Source: Fulvivirga lutea
GTDB taxonomy: Bacteria > Bacteroidota > Bacteroidia > Cytophagales > Cyclobacteriaceae
Assembly: GCF_017068455.1 (NCBI RefSeq)
Contig: NZ_CP070608.1
Span: 2,089,488-2,153,487 of the forward strand
DNA: 64,000 nucleotides
Direction of reading: 5' to 3'
Shown here: positions 9,398 through 15,487 of the stretch, piece after piece
Layout of the letters: each line of letters opens with the position of its first letter
Numbering within the stretch: position 1 is the stretch's first letter
Program-made: the position numbers and the translations under genes
Notes under the pieces: model-generated
The model's input: only the letters and a program-made list of their open reading frames with translations
The model's database searches: none
What the model was told of the DNA's origin: nothing

Positions 9398-9856
9398 ATG
9401 AGTATAGAGCAGGAATTAAATGTGAAATTCAACAACTCATTTCACAAAAGCATCACCAACCTTTATGTGACCTACAAATGGGTAGATGCTCAGATTAATC
9501 CAATTTTTAAAGCATATAAACTACAGGGTCAGCACTTTAATGTAATGAGAATATTACTGGGGAGTAACCCTAAGCCGTTAAGTCCGAAGGCCATTAAAGA
9601 GGTAATGATGGATAAGGGGCCTGATTTGACAAGATTGGTTGATAAGCTCGTGGAACGCGATTTGGCGGTACGTGAGTTAAATGCTGAGAATAGGAGAGAG
9701 ATGTTAATAAAACTTACTGAAAAAGGAGTTGTGCTTACAAAGAAAATCGATAGTGAATTGATGGAAAGAATCGCTTCTATTAAATCTATTAGTGATAATG
9801 AAGCGGAGGAATTGAGTAAGTTGTTGGATAAGATGCGAAAAGAAAATAAGAGTTAA
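9398..9856 (+). CDS. MarR-family transcriptional regulator
   Basis: The 152-residue protein has the MarR winged-helix layout: an N-terminal dimerisation helix, the segment QHFNVMRILL (helix 2), a recognition helix region GPDLTRLVDKLVERDLAVR and the wing ENRREMLIKLTEKG, followed by a C-terminal dimer helix. Such proteins are usually ligand- or oxidant-responsive repressors of nearby genes. The next gene, DoxX 62 bp downstream, is a classic MarR neighbour, and a 12-bp palindrome TTGTTACAACAA lies between them. The effector is unknown. Confidence 0.88.
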   Translation: MSIEQELNVKFNNSFHKSITNLYVTYKWVDAQINPIFKAYKLQGQHFNVMRILLGSNPKPLSPKAIKEVMMDKGPDLTRLVDKLVERDLAVRELNAENRREMLIKLTEKGVVLTKKIDSELMERIASIKSISDNEAEELSKLLDKMRKENKS

Positions 9857-9917: not shown

Positions 9918-10295
9918 ATGAAAAGTAAAATTGTATTTGCCATTAGCCTTTTGTTTGGTTTAATGATGATTAACTCCGGGTTAAATAAGTTTCTGAATTA
10001 TATGCCCTGGCCTGAGATGCCTGAACCTGCAATGAATTTAATGACTGCCTTTATGGAAAGTGGCTGGGTGTTTCCACTGGTGGCCGTTGCAGAAATTGTT
10101 GGTGGTATTCTATTTATTCTTCCGAAGTATAGAGCATTAGGAGCCATTGTATTGTTCCCTGTGGTAGTAGGTATATTTTTATTCCATGCTGTTTTAGAGC
10201 CGTCTACCATGCCTGTGGCAATTATTATTCTGGCAATTAACCTTTATGTAATCTATGAAAATAGAGAAAAGTACATGCCTATGATTAAATCGTAA
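9918..10295 (+). CDS. DoxX-family membrane protein
   Basis: This 125-residue protein has four predicted membrane helices and the DoxX signature LMMINSGLNKFLNYMP in helix 1 and AEIVGGILFILPKYRALGAIVL in the middle. It follows the MarR gene by 62 bp and is probably its regulated target. An activity cannot be assigned; DoxX proteins are linked in some bacteria to thiol or oxidant homeostasis. Confidence 0.78.
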   Translation: MKSKIVFAISLLFGLMMINSGLNKFLNYMPWPEMPEPAMNLMTAFMESGWVFPLVAVAEIVGGILFILPKYRALGAIVLFPVVVGIFLFHAVLEPSTMPVAIIILAINLYVIYENREKYMPMIKS

Positions 10296-10319: not shown

Positions 10320-10350
10320 GGACTTAATTCATTCAATTAAGTCCTTTTTT
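10320..10350 (+). terminator. Intrinsic terminator of the DoxX gene
   Basis: The arms GGACTTAATT (10320-10329) and AATTAAGTCC (10335-10344) are perfectly complementary around a 5-nt loop and are followed by six T. The right arm and T-run also encode the last codons of the convergent DUF885 gene. Confidence 0.85.
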
Positions 10351-12201
10351 GTCTTCGATATAATTATTTACCAACCGTTCTAGTATTGCCAAAGGCACAG
10401 CGCCATTGGTGAGTACAACGTCATGAAATTCTCCAAGATCAAAGGCAGAACCAAGTTCGGCCTTTGCTTTTTCGCGTAATTCTAGAATTTTCATCATTCC
10501 TATTTTATATGCACAAGCCTGACCAGGTAATACAATGTAGCGTTCTATTTCTGCTGTTACGTCCGAAATAGGCATACCGGTGTAATTTACCATGTAGTTG
10601 ATGGCTTGCTCTCGTGTCCATCTTTTGCTATGAATACCAGTGTCCACCACTAACCTCACAGCTCTGAAAATATCACCCTGTAATCTTCCCAAATTACCGA
10701 ATGGATCATTTTCATAAAAACCAAGTTCATACGCGAGTAATTCTGTATATAGTGCCCAGCCTTCTGTATAAGCTGTAAATGGAATTACATTTCTAAACGT
10801 GGGTAATCCTTCCAGCTCAGTTTGTATGGCTATCTGAAAATGGTGCCCCGGAATGCCTTCATGATACGCCAGTGTTTTCATCCCATATTTAGGAATATTC
10901 TCTACTTCAGCCAGATTAATGTAAAATACACCACCACGGGAACCATCCACAGCTGGTCTTCCATAATAGGCGAGTGCCTGACCATCTTCACGATATTCTT
11001 TAATACGTTTCACTTCCAAATCTGCTTTAGGTCGTGTATTAAATGCATCTCCAAGGTTTTGCTCGATATGTTCTATTATGGCCGTATAATCTGCTATAAT
11101 CTGATTTCTTCCTTCATCGCTATCAGGATATAGAAAGCGCTCCTCATTATTTAATTCTAAAATAATTTCGCCCAGCGTTTTAGTCGTGTCCTGGTACCCT
11201 TCCTGATTCAGGATTGCCCTCATTTCTGATGCTATTCGTTTTACTTCTTTCAGACCGATGGAATGAATTTCTTCCGGACTTAGTGAGGTGGTGGTATGAA
11301 ATCCTACGAGGTATTTATAATATTCCTCCCCATTATCAAACTTCCACACGCCTGCTGAACTGTCCGATTTGGTTTTAAGCTGTACAAAATAGTCCTTAAG
11401 CTGGCTGTAAGCACTGAATGCATCATTTCTTACAGCATCTTCTATCTTTTGGAGGTATTCTTCCTTTTCGGAGTCATTTAAATCTTCTATTGATGAAAGC
11501 TTTTCTTTAGCGATACTGTATAGCACGTTACCTCTCACTGCATCAATAGAAGCCTCTTTTTCTATTGCCAAAGAATCTCTACCCAAAAAACTATCGAGTT
11601 GACCAATGATTTTATCAATGATGTAATTGGGAGGAATCACGCCTTGCTCTTCCCTGATTTTTAATCCTTCAATTACCTGATTAAATTTTGTGTTGAATTT
11701 TGACAGTCGGCTGATATAAGCATCCAGATCATCTTTGCTCTCTAGCCGGTGATAGTCTGTTAAGATTTCAGGAAGCTCTGCCTGGACACCAAACATCTGA
11801 TTTACAGGATAATCATTGTAGAAAAACTCTTTCCTTTTGATTTCTTGCTCTATATACCACTTGAGTATATCGTAGTTTAACTGTTCTTCTTTGGGGAGTG
11901 ATTCGTAATCATAGCTTGAAAGCGTTTCATAACTATCTTCATACACTTTCATTTGCTCTCGAAGTGCCTCGTCCGAAACATCAGTAAGTTCATCTTTTGT
12001 TAGATCATAGAGAACGGGCACACCTAATTGTGTAATGATCTCCGGGTTGTCCAGTGCAAAATTTATAAATACTCGTTCATAGAAATGCCGAATATTAAAT
12101 GGTTTGAACCAGATAAGATTAACAACCCAAATGATGCCTAGAATAAGGCAAAATAAAACAATACGTTTAAGCCAGGACAACAAGCCAGTTTTTTTAGGCA
12201 T
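10333..12201 (-). CDS. DUF885 family protein, putative zinc-dependent peptidase, membrane-anchored
   Basis: The 622-residue protein begins with an uncleaved-looking hydrophobic segment (about 12-30), so the body is likely periplasmic and tethered. The C-terminal half holds the DUF885 hallmark AYHEGIPGHHFQ (H447, E448, H453/H454), a metallopeptidase-like motif, plus TEGWALYTE downstream, whose Glu could complete a zinc site. Family members are usually annotated as putative carboxypeptidase-like lipoproteins; the substrate is not known. It is monocistronic and its 3' end overlaps the terminator of the convergent DoxX gene. Confidence 0.82.
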   Translation of the reverse strand: MPKKTGLLSWLKRIVLFCLILGIIWVVNLIWFKPFNIRHFYERVFINFALDNPEIITQLGVPVLYDLTKDELTDVSDEALREQMKVYEDSYETLSSYDYESLPKEEQLNYDILKWYIEQEIKRKEFFYNDYPVNQMFGVQAELPEILTDYHRLESKDDLDAYISRLSKFNTKFNQVIEGLKIREEQGVIPPNYIIDKIIGQLDSFLGRDSLAIEKEASIDAVRGNVLYSIAKEKLSSIEDLNDSEKEEYLQKIEDAVRNDAFSAYSQLKDYFVQLKTKSDSSAGVWKFDNGEEYYKYLVGFHTTTSLSPEEIHSIGLKEVKRIASEMRAILNQEGYQDTTKTLGEIILELNNEERFLYPDSDEGRNQIIADYTAIIEHIEQNLGDAFNTRPKADLEVKRIKEYREDGQALAYYGRPAVDGSRGGVFYINLAEVENIPKYGMKTLAYHEGIPGHHFQIAIQTELEGLPTFRNVIPFTAYTEGWALYTELLAYELGFYENDPFGNLGRLQGDIFRAVRLVVDTGIHSKRWTREQAINYMVNYTGMPISDVTAEIERYIVLPGQACAYKIGMMKILELREKAKAELGSAFDLGEFHDVVLTNGAVPLAILERLVNNYIEDKKGLN

Positions 12202-12251: not shown

Positions 12252-12277
12252 AAATGCCGGAAATTAAACCGGCATTT
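12252..12277 (-). terminator. Intrinsic terminator of the sigma/anti-sigma operon
   Basis: The arms AAATGCCGG and CCGGCATTT (loop 8 nt) are perfect. Read on the minus strand, the stem is followed by a run of eight T, directly after the stop of the anti-sigma/YCII gene. Confidence 0.85.
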
Positions 12278-12287
12278 GGGTATTTAT

Positions 12288-12842
12288 CTAATCTAGTCTT
12301 TCAATCGGCCTCACTTCCACACCACCTCCGTAACCTACATGTGGGTGTTTTTCTGCGATGGCAAGTGCCTCATCAAAATCATTGGCCAGAATGATAAAGT
12401 ACCCTGATAAGGCACTATTCGAATTTCTGGTACTCTGGTTGCCTAACCACTTGCCGTTATCGGCCAACTTTTCTGCACCACTTAACTTGCCTTTTTCACT
12501 CATTTTAATTGCCCAGTTGGTGTATTCCTCAACAAGATCACTCATATTGGCGGCTGCGAATGATTCATTTTCGTATAAGAAAAGGGCGTATTGATTCATG
12601 TCTGTTGGCGGTGTAGTTGAGTCCTGAAATGTTGTTCCGATAAATAGTCCGCACACTAAGGCAGTTATTGTTGCTGCGGCCCAATAAATATGTATTTGTT
12701 TCATTTTCGTTTCTTTTTTAATTAATTCTAGCTGAATGAGTCGATCAGTCACCTTGTTTTTCAAGCGTTCAGGCGTTTTTATGCCGGCCTTTAAATTCTC
12801 CAATGCCTGAATTTCTTTCGGAGTGAGATTATCATTTTTCAT
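12288..12842 (-). CDS. Membrane anti-sigma-like protein fused to a YCII-related domain
   Basis: The first about 48 residues form a charged helical cytoplasmic segment (LTPKEIQALENLKAG...RLKNKVTDRL) like short anti-sigma N-termini. One membrane helix follows (about 51-70), and then a C-terminal domain (about 82-182) with the YCII/DGPF-type ferredoxin-like pattern (QYALFLYENE ... GYFIILANDFDEALAIAEKHPHVGYGGGVEVRPIE). The gene overlaps the upstream ECF sigma gene by 11 bp, so translation is coupled. By topology the YCII-like domain should lie in the periplasm. YCII proteins are usually soluble and cytoplasmic and some are encoded beside ECF sigma factors; here the two modules are in one polypeptide. 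Anti-sigma function is inferred from position and architecture. Confidence 0.7.
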   Translation of the reverse strand: MKNDNLTPKEIQALENLKAGIKTPERLKNKVTDRLIQLELIKKETKMKQIHIYWAAATITALVCGLFIGTTFQDSTTPPTDMNQYALFLYENESFAAANMSDLVEEYTNWAIKMSEKGKLSGAEKLADNGKWLGNQSTRNSNSALSGYFIILANDFDEALAIAEKHPHVGYGGGVEVRPIERLD

Positions 12843-13362
12843 ACTGATAGTCTTTCATTAATTCCCTCATTCTTTTTCTGGCTTGGAAGAGCTGACTTTT
12901 GCTTGTGCCTTCATTGATGTGAAGTATGTCGGCAATTTCACGATGTTTATATCCTTCCAGGTCATGTAATAATAATACCATTCGAAAACCTTGCGGCAGC
13001 GCCTTTATCGCTTCCTCTAAATCCATGGAAACAGAAGTATTGGTTTCGGTAGAGTTTTCAAATTGTAATTCACCTATGTCGTCATTTACTTTAAATTTTC
13101 GTAAATGGTCATAGTTCTTATTGATCAATATGCGCGTCATCCAGGTAGAAAGTCTTGACCTTCCTTCAAACTTTTCGAGGCTCTGAATTATTACTACCCA
13201 GGTTTCTTGAATCAGGTCATGCAGGTAGCTATCATTTCCTTTTGACAGGAAATAAGCCACACGATACAAGGCAGGGTTGCAGTACTCATAAAGCCTGTTA
13301 AAACTTTCACTAGACCTGTCCTTTAAAAAGCTTTCTACTAGTTCTTTGTCGGTTGAATTCAA
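12832..13362 (-). CDS. ECF-type RNA polymerase sigma factor
   Basis: At 176 residues the protein has region 2 (about 20-90; LIQETWVVIIQSLEKFEGRSRLSTWMTRILINK, the -10-binding helices) and region 4 (about 115-170; LPQGFRMVLLLHDLEGYKHREIADILHINEGTSKSQLFQARKRMR, HTH). There is no C-terminal extension such as the TPR tail of ECF42 factors. It is the first gene of a two-gene operon with the membrane anti-sigma/YCII protein, so it is probably released by an envelope signal. It is divergent from the lipoprotein gene at 13439, a possible target. Confidence 0.92.
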   Translation of the reverse strand: MNSTDKELVESFLKDRSSESFNRLYEYCNPALYRVAYFLSKGNDSYLHDLIQETWVVIIQSLEKFEGRSRLSTWMTRILINKNYDHLRKFKVNDDIGELQFENSTETNTSVSMDLEEAIKALPQGFRMVLLLHDLEGYKHREIADILHINEGTSKSQLFQARKRMRELMKDYQYEK

Positions 13363-13438
13363 ATCCTACAATTTGATCATTAGAGTAAGTAAGATAGTAA
13401 ATGGTTGTATGATCTCTTGCTTTTTATTTAGTATTACA

Positions 13439-15487
13439 ATGATTGACAAACGGGGAAAGGCTATCAAACAATTAAGAAATATATTATTCTCAATAATCTT
13501 AATACAGGGTTGTATGCCTGACGATATAGAGGTGCCTGCATGGGAGGCGGAATTTCTTTTCCCATTAGTGAATGCGGCCTTCAATATAGAAGATGTTACT
13601 CTTTCCGATTCGTTATTTTTAAGAGAAGACAGTATTGGAGCTTTAACACTGGTGTATATAAGTAGTGAAGACTCGGTGAGATTGCTGGAGTTGTTTGAGA
13701 TTCCTGATCAAACATTTGATATCGATTTGCCCGGCATACCCAATACAATTCCAGACTTTGATTTTGGAGGAACGATAGGTTTGCAAGATCTTGGTTTAGA
13801 AGCGGGCACTATTATTTCTATTCCACCAATTGATTTTCCTGAACTGCAGTTACCTATTGATATTACTGATGTTTTTATTGAAGCTGAGTTTGAGTCGGGT
13901 TTCATAAATTTTTCATTAGAAAATGGATTGCCTGTTACTATTAAATCAGGCGCGGCAGTGATTCTAAAAAATGCTTCTGATAATAGTGAGGTAGCAACAC
14001 TTCCTGTTATAACCGATATTCTCCCAGGTCAGGTTTACACTTTACCCACGCCTGTTTCACTCAACAATAAAATTGTAGAGGGTAATTTAATGATTGAATT
14101 ACAAAACTTGTCCACTAATGGAGCTTCAAATGTTGATGTACTGCCAACTGATCAACTGTCTTTAAGTTTTTCAATTGAAGACATAGCATTTCGAGAGGCA
14201 ACACTTACGGTACCTGCATTCAATTTTGATATTACCGATCAAACTTTTGAATTTGAATTGCCCAACAACGCTCAAATTACTGAGTTGGTAACCAATTCAG
14301 GCCTTCTTAGTCTGAACGTTAGCTATGGAAATTCTTTACCAATAACCATTGAATTTGAGTTCCCACATATACGAAATCCTAATGGTATATTAATGCCCGC
14401 TATACAATTAGAAAACTCTGCAAATACTCAGGTAGATTTTGCCAACACCACTGCCGACTTAACTTCGAACGGATTATTTAATGCCAATAGCATTGTGCTA
14501 AATGTAAATGTCTCTTCTCCCGGTTCGGCCTCACCCATTACAATAGATTTCGAATCCAGAGTAACTGGTGCAATCAGCTTACAAAATCTTAGCATTCATT
14601 CTGTATTTGGTTATTTAGGCTATTACCAAGACCTGCTGGAAGGCTTTGCTGAAATTGATTTTTTTGATCAGGTTTCAAGTGGCTCAATCTCTTTTAATGA
14701 CCCGAAAGTGATTGTAAATATTAGCAATGAATTAGGTGTTACTGTGGGGTTTTTAGACAATCAGGAGCTTTATGTGCGTGCTAGAAACAATAGGCTATTT
14801 CCGGGAGTGGAAGTAAATATGAGGGAGTCTTTAACCGATTTCATTATTAATGGAGCAACTTCAGTGGGAGAGAAGCAACAATCTCAACTAGTAATAGGTG
14901 GTGCGAATGAACCCTCTTTTGGGGAATTTATTAGCTTGCTTCCAAAACAAGTAGACTATTCATTTCCCATTTTTATTGGAACAGAAAATGTTGATTATAA
15001 CCAGTTTGTAATAGACACCAGCCAGGTAAAAGGGAATATTCAAATTGAAATGCCCCTTGATCTACAATCTAAAGATTTAACAATTACTGATACGCTGGAT
15101 TTTGATATAGAAATTGATACGGAGTATGCTGAGTTTATTGAAGGCGTACTAACTAATAAAGTAGAGAATTACTTCCCTCTAGAATTTTTGCTACAGGCCT
15201 ATTTTATGGATAGTCTATATCAACGGGTAGATTCAGTATTTCTAGAAAAGCGATTAATAAGCCCAGGGGAATTGAATAGTGAAGGCAGAGTAGATACCCC
15301 CTTTCGGATTAATTATGAAATTAATGTAGGTAAAGAAAAACTGGAAAATATTAAAAGGGCAAGATACATTCAGCCCGAGTTTGTTTTAAATACTACTTCT
15401 CAGGAGCGAGTGAAAATTTTCAACAACACTGTTATTCTCTACAAACTCAATGGCGATTTCCAGGTATTCCTTCCAAATGAATTATGA
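13439..15487 (+). CDS. Large beta-rich lipoprotein of unknown function
   Basis: I chose the ATG at 13439 because the longer frame (13346) would overlap the divergent sigma gene and has no signal sequence, while this start gives a 25-residue lipoprotein signal with lipobox IQGC (Cys25). The mature part (about 655 residues) is rich in alternating hydrophobic strands and N, S, T, D, with several paralogous stretches (for example PITIEFEFP, PITIDFES), suggesting repeated beta-sandwich units. I do not recognise a named family. Its stop overlaps the start of the barrel protein at 15484 (ATGA), so the two are translationally coupled and likely act together at the outer membrane. Confidence 0.65.
   Translation: MIDKRGKAIKQLRNILFSIILIQGCMPDDIEVPAWEAEFLFPLVNAAFNIEDVTLSDSLFLREDSIGALTLVYISSEDSVRLLELFEIPDQTFDIDLPGIPNTIPDFDFGGTIGLQDLGLEAGTIISIPPIDFPELQLPIDITDVFIEAEFESGFINFSLENGLPVTIKSGAAVILKNASDNSEVATLPVITDILPGQVYTLPTPVSLNNKIVEGNLMIELQNLSTNGASNVDVLPTDQLSLSFSIEDIAFREATLTVPAFNFDITDQTFEFELPNNAQITELVTNSGLLSLNVSYGNSLPITIEFEFPHIRNPNGILMPAIQLENSANTQVDFANTTADLTSNGLFNANSIVLNVNVSSPGSASPITIDFESRVTGAISLQNLSIHSVFGYLGYYQDLLEGFAEIDFFDQVSSGSISFNDPKVIVNISNELGVTVGFLDNQELYVRARNNRLFPGVEVNMRESLTDFIINGATSVGEKQQSQLVIGGANEPSFGEFISLLPKQVDYSFPIFIGTENVDYNQFVIDTSQVKGNIQIEMPLDLQSKDLTITDTLDFDIEIDTEYAEFIEGVLTNKVENYFPLEFLLQAYFMDSLYQRVDSVFLEKRLISPGELNSEGRVDTPFRINYEINVGKEKLENIKRARYIQPEFVLNTTSQERVKIFNNTVILYKLNGDFQVFLPNEL

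Follow-up and report, generated by a model that had tools for sequence, protein, structure and literature searches.

The 64,000-nucleotide stretch of Fulvivirga lutea DNA analysed here (contig NZ_CP070608.1; hereafter the window) is likely to encode an ECF sigma factor and a transmembrane anti-sigma factor as one autoregulated unit of two genes, in which a degenerate periplasmic YCII domain would act as the input module. The initial annotation, made from the letters of the window, had interpreted the membrane protein as anti-sigma-like, with a YCII-like domain that could be the signal input, and our analysis indicates that this interpretation is probably right. If so, YCII, which is common and largely uncharacterized in function, would gain a concrete role as an input module in the envelope.

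Organization of the locus

The sigma factor gene (12832..13362, minus strand) starts with TTG and encodes 176 residues. A Pfam search revealed Sigma70_r2 (54.1 bits) and Sigma70_r4_2 (60 bits), both above the cut-off, indicating a protein of regions 2 and 4 only, and the sigma genes of the relatives can be aligned to it along the full length. The sigma gene (13362..12832, in reading direction) overlaps by 11 bp the gene of a 184-residue membrane protein with an ATG start and a C-terminal YCII domain (12288..12842, minus strand), so that the latter is coupled to an ECF gene as is found for membrane-bound anti-sigma factors. Both the coordinates of this frame and the 11-bp overlap had been given correctly in the initial annotation.

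Just 3' of the stop codon of the membrane protein lies a terminator-like hairpin of 9 pairs with a loop of 8 and a T run (12252..12277, minus strand), which fits the plus strand too. The scan yielded four such sites in 1.9 kb against a mean of 1.7 (sd 1.4) in shuffled sequences, and the hairpin is therefore weak evidence; its position suggests that the transcription unit probably consists of two genes. A DUF885 protein (576.9 bits) is encoded beyond the hairpin at 10333-12201 (minus strand), and this intervening hairpin makes it unlikely to be a third member of the operon. A MarR-type regulator adjoins a DoxX protein at 9398-9856 and 9918-10295 (plus strand). Divergent from the sigma gene is a 713-residue frame (13346-15487, plus strand) with a lipobox-like stretch near its start and no Pfam match, followed by the gene of a DUF5723 protein.

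Architecture of the membrane protein

The AlphaFold2 model of the membrane protein, built with 31 sequences (mean pLDDT of 83.8), revealed helices at residues 8-20 and 25-37 and a long helix at residues 49-73, followed by the strands and helices of YCII. The pTM is 0.56; the model does not fix the mutual placement of head, helix and YCII. The model and an alignment of the heads define an N-terminal head of residues 1-45 (12708..12842, minus strand) comprising the first two helices, which we propose as the sigma-binding part. This head gave no Pfam match at all and fitted no anti-sigma model of Pfam or NCBIfam, and neither collection identified it as a zf-HC2 or Class I anti-sigma head; the whole membrane protein gave no NCBIfam match over the cut-off.

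The long helix (12624..12698, minus strand) contains the top 19-residue hydrophobic stretch, with a mean Kyte-Doolittle value of 1.85, which bears out the membrane helix previously placed at residues 51-70. Four Lys or Arg residues are found in the 15 residues before it and none in the 13 after it. In 32 of the 34 proteins compared, Lys and Arg are more frequent on the N-terminal side of the helix than on its C-terminal side (mean 3.4 versus 1.0); one protein shows equal numbers and one, L056, the reverse. This charge pattern is of the N-in type, and the YCII domain is therefore predicted to be periplasmic. A cytoplasmic head on an N-in helix, as expected of membrane-bound anti-sigma factors, is thus predicted for the window protein.

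The profile PF03795 matched residues 84-182 (12297..12593, minus strand) with 27.1 bits (E 5.8e-6) against a curated cut-off of 24, a real but modest match; the relatives L053 (20.6), L074 (18.1) and L013 (22.5) score under this cut-off. A Foldseek search with the model gave PA1349 (1s7i) as the best match (E 4.6e-7) and HI0828 (1mwq) as the second (E 4.1e-4). Superposition by VIA-align yielded a Z of 12.8 for PA1349 (rmsd of 2.8 over 103 aligned residues), 10.9 for HI0828 and 10.8 for ClcF. The YCII assignment of the initial annotation, for which a profile search and a structure prediction had been suggested, thus holds in both profile and fold. The F. lutea genome has four YCII matches.

Distribution of the fusion and loss of the DGP motif

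Searching other genomes for the same fusion, as suggested with the initial annotation, revealed that it recurs in distantly related bacteria. Among 86 distinct YCII sequences, 33 carry a head of the window type and an upstream sigma gene, two are sigma-linked without this head (L039, with zf-HC2, and L041, whose head is unreadable in the same frame), and the remaining 51 are free. An ECF sigma gene lies upstream of all 33 proteins bearing the window-type head; only this count is a test, since possession of a sigma gene was what placed the 35 sequences in the sigma-linked set. Sequences were called free when a profile of 11 partner sigmas matched nothing near them at E 1e-6, and weak ECF matches (E 2e-4 to 6e-4) are present near three of them (L021, L022 and L027). 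With 33 distinct sequences of the same architecture, a chance or misassembled fusion was rejected.

With the window protein as query against 98 related genomes, matches over the full or most of the length were found in its own genome and in 10 further ones, always with a sigma gene in front. The gap between sigma and anti-sigma genes ranges from -11 to +11 nt in the 11 loci measured, with the starts as chosen in this analysis. The fusion is present in nine of the 15 genomes of the same genus, its own included, and is therefore patchy even among close relatives. Of 390 family genomes searched with a profile of the fusion, 24 matched it over the greater part of its length, all of them with the head, YCII and an upstream sigma gene; of 395 genomes from the whole phylum, three matched at E 1e-20 or better, the genome of the window and two of one other family. 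Scanning of contigs yielded 48 loci, with window-type heads in Fulvivirga, Roseivirga, other Bacteroidota, Ignavibacteriota, KSB1, Zixibacteria and Planctomycetota. A search of plasmids gave no match. On a KSB1 contig, a YCII domain of the sigma-linked type follows a sigma gene at L041:3781-4332 (plus strand), and its unreadable head points to a sequence error or a broken gene.

The DGP motif is found in none of the 35 sigma-linked YCII domains, the window protein included, versus 46 of the 51 free ones; these counts are for DGP alone, although the expression used to class fused and free domains also accepted DGA and DGL. By this motif, the window protein falls outside the DGPF subfamily. Conserved in the sigma-linked domains over wide distances are E/Y/W residues at positions 106, 107 and 110, PH at 167-168 and YGG at 171-173, where PH..GG is part of the pattern PH[LVT][KGR]YGGxIE that recruited loci in the contig scan and is thus conserved by construction in those loci. 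A tree built from 85 rows and 119 columns sets the sigma-linked YCII domains apart from the free ones by a single branch (96/95); it has few columns, six long end branches and an arbitrary root, and L042 was excluded from it because its domain had been split by the profile. This single division gives no support to more than one origin of the fusion.

Exchange of heads and outer domains

Two further proteins carry YCII on other heads. L039, on the same contig as L151, combines zf-HC2 (29.1 bits, cut-off 22.2), a helix and YCII (27.5 bits, cut-off 24), overlaps an ECF gene, and has a YCII domain on the sigma-linked side of the tree. L152 bears a third type of head on YCII (26.6 bits) and overlaps its ECF gene by 4 bp. 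A search with the head against its own genome returned the window protein as the only convincing match (E 5.8e-28, the next being 0.013). In 196 genomes of the family there were eight strong matches, seven with YCII plus G020, and the rest, at E 8.9e-7 or weaker, lie mostly over the helix. An ECF match was present in all 29 family loci fetched after this search. As L039, L152 and the repeat protein of L113 described below show, heads and outer domains are swapped at one constant position beside ECF genes, which is the behaviour of anti-sigma factors. Judging from these sequence comparisons, the window protein would be a transmembrane anti-sigma factor that inhibits its sigma factor.

A window-type head was also observed on a 438-residue protein of SPAFxELMK-like repeats (L113:738-2054, minus strand) that overlaps an ECF gene; the repeats may be another outer domain of the same type of anti-sigma factor. 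An OSCP match in this protein (24.9 bits, over the cut-off, with no stretch passing) was taken as spurious. A related repeat protein of 353 residues is encoded next to it (L113:2696-3757, minus strand).

Promoter-like motif upstream of the sigma gene

The sigma gene of the window is preceded by the promoter-like motif ATACAACC-N17-CTCTAA (13380..13410, minus strand). The pattern CAAC[CT]-N16/17-C[AT]C[TC][ACT]A, abbreviated CAACC-N16/17-CACTMA, is kept upstream of 27 of the 35 sigma genes, that of the window included, and is absent from eight. First-order resampling gave a mean of 0.14 and a maximum of 2 of 35 loci, and the opposite strand gave none. Visual inspection of 21 loci had given the motif, and nine of the 14 held-out loci have it. 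In the genome of the window, the strict motif has two sites versus none for the control, the second inside a frame that is open across the whole 3-kb locus, and a looser motif has seven sites versus three for the reversed control. The scans of this genome with the strict and the looser motif revealed no regulon beyond the unit's own promoter. As for the two DUF6265 genes of this genome, L153 is without the motif and L154 has one off-pattern site.

Partner genes

At least one of three types of partner gene, encoding a DUF6265 protein, a double glyoxalase-fold protein or a member of an unnamed family of about 200 residues, is present in 30 of the 35 sigma-linked loci; the five without partners are the window, L013, L039, L104 and L106. 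Of the 30 loci counted, 13 had served to build the profiles and 17 had not, and the flanks of the loci are unequal in length, some being just 0.5-1.5 kb. DUF6265 scored 117 to 127 bits in four proteins tested, and the double glyoxalase fold 61 to 69 bits in three. In 27 of the 30 loci, no more than about 150 nt separate the end of the anti-sigma frame from the start of a partner; the partner lies upstream in L046 and L053, and is found about 500 nt on in L093. Judged by eye, the N termini of the partner proteins are signal-peptide-like. The unnamed family also has such starts in its members next to the fusion genes at L042:4630-5220, L056:4461-5042 and L080:4605-5210 (plus strand), where no Pfam match exceeds the cut-off.

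DUF6265 is also encoded near 10 of the 51 free YCII genes, which provides an independent link between the two families. In a single frame, L111:874-1854 (plus strand), DUF6265 (119.3 bits) and a DGPF-type YCII domain (53.1 bits) follow a start that resembles a signal peptide; this may be an exported YCII unconnected with anti-sigma factors. The model of a DUF6265 protein (L037:4561-5037, plus strand; pLDDT 82.0) superposes on nitrobindin with a VIA Z of 14.9 and an rmsd of 2.2 over 116 aligned residues; Foldseek gave nitrobindin an E of 1.3e-3, and no match at 0.001 or better. The same model is also similar to RsfG of Streptomyces tsukubaensis (7qh3, Z 13.1), titled an anti-sigma factor. A heme role for DUF6265 was rejected, as the lone invariant His in nine aligned proteins sits in KHF and no His of the C-terminal region is kept in all. 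Searching the PDB by sequence brought up no relative of either DUF6265 or the unnamed family.

Proposed mechanism and alternatives

The computations themselves yield the order of the genes, their domains and fold, the charge pattern, the conserved motif, the partner genes and a single YCII clade; the inhibition of the sigma factor, the sensor role of YCII, the signal and the way of release are inferred. We propose that the sigma factor and the membrane protein would be translated together. The cytoplasmic N-terminal head would sequester the sigma factor, with one helix spanning the inner membrane and YCII standing in the periplasm as the putative signal-input module. Upon the binding of a small molecule or an exported partner protein by YCII, or upon its unfolding or cleavage, the head would free the sigma factor through a conformational change or regulated proteolysis. 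The freed sigma factor would then transcribe its own operon from the CAACC/CACTMA promoter. Since the operons of most relatives encode exported-looking nitrobindin-like (DUF6265) or glyoxalase-fold proteins, the cue is likely to be an organic or reactive small molecule present in the envelope.

In one alternative, the protein is still a transmembrane anti-sigma factor, with YCII as a non-sensing module for dimerisation, stability or docking and with the signal acting elsewhere, be it on a protease, on the membrane or on an exported partner to which YCII binds. The nearest folds of our model include dimeric alpha+beta proteins such as ClcF, from a superfamily known for dimerisation. The loss of DGP would fit a lost ancestral ligand site, and the partner genes in 30 of 35 loci would also agree with such a role. 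However, residues are invariant over wide distances (106, 107 and 110; 167-168; 171-173; PH..GG being not independent in the loci recruited with it), and we consider a non-sensing YCII unlikely.

The remaining alternatives concern the function of the protein as a whole. That it is a positive regulator of the sigma factor, or some other sigma-linked membrane protein that does not inhibit, would be in keeping with a head unrecognised by Pfam and NCBIfam. However, the relative L039 has a zf-HC2 head in the same place, and the overlapping, sigma-first gene order is typical of known anti-sigma pairs, making such a role very unlikely. The glyoxalase-fold and nitrobindin-like partners suggest detoxification, and YCII might thus still be an enzyme, moved to the periplasm and merely co-regulated; with DGP gone in 35 of 35 domains, with a head and a helix that would serve no purpose, and with no reaction known to us that could be named for YCII, we regard this as highly improbable. 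The preferred reading is that of an anti-sigma factor with a YCII input. A broader and tentative view, possible though short of probable, is that a cytoplasmic toolkit of YCII, glyoxalase-fold and nitrobindin-like proteins was moved to the envelope and wired to transcription. YCII might then serve as a degenerate receptor in the periplasm, joined to anti-sigma heads of a new class and present in several phyla with exchanged heads, and might control exported proteins that bind or detoxify small molecules.

Comparison with known systems

Membrane-bound anti-sigma factors of ECF sigmas include the RseA and RskA types and those with zf-HC2 or class I heads. Similar to the RseA and RskA types, the window pair has a sigma overlap, a short cytoplasmic head, one helix, an outer C-terminal domain and a promoter-like motif before the sigma gene. 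The differences are in the head, which Pfam does not know (zf-HC2 is found in L039 only), and in the outer domain, which is YCII. In the available part of PMC7406223, class I anti-sigma domains are located near 6% of Bacteroidetes ECFs, as heads with varied fused domains beside ECF genes, a layout like that described here. Unlike those domains, the window head matches no known model; to ECF genes that seldom have a recognised class I anti-sigma factor nearby, the window thus adds a head new to Pfam.

The available portion of PMC8999054 describes YCII proteins beside ECF42 genes and a YCII fused to an ECF sigma factor in Caulobacter, and that of PMC6180224 an ECF42 locus with YCII in Sinorhizobium and a long TPR extension of the ECF42 sigma factor. 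As in the window, YCII goes together there with an ECF sigma factor, and a regulatory role has been suggested for it. In the ECF42 systems, as far as these portions go, YCII is separate or on the sigma factor, the sigma factor has the TPR extension, and no anti-sigma factor is identified. In contrast, the 176-residue sigma factor of the window is short and without this extension, and its YCII domain, lacking DGP, is on a membrane protein and predicted to be outside.

A fusion of YCII to an anti-sigma factor was not found described in the literature searched, the coverage of which is incomplete, in agreement with the initial annotation, which knew of no such use. The outer domain is thus new to this role in the papers searched, and the motif and partner genes make the pathway testable. 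Among proteins of known structure, PA1349 (1s7i) and YciI HI0828 (1mwq) share the fold of residues ~79-184. Those two are free-standing proteins of 124 and about 100 residues, whereas the window domain is without DGPF and is carried by a membrane helix.
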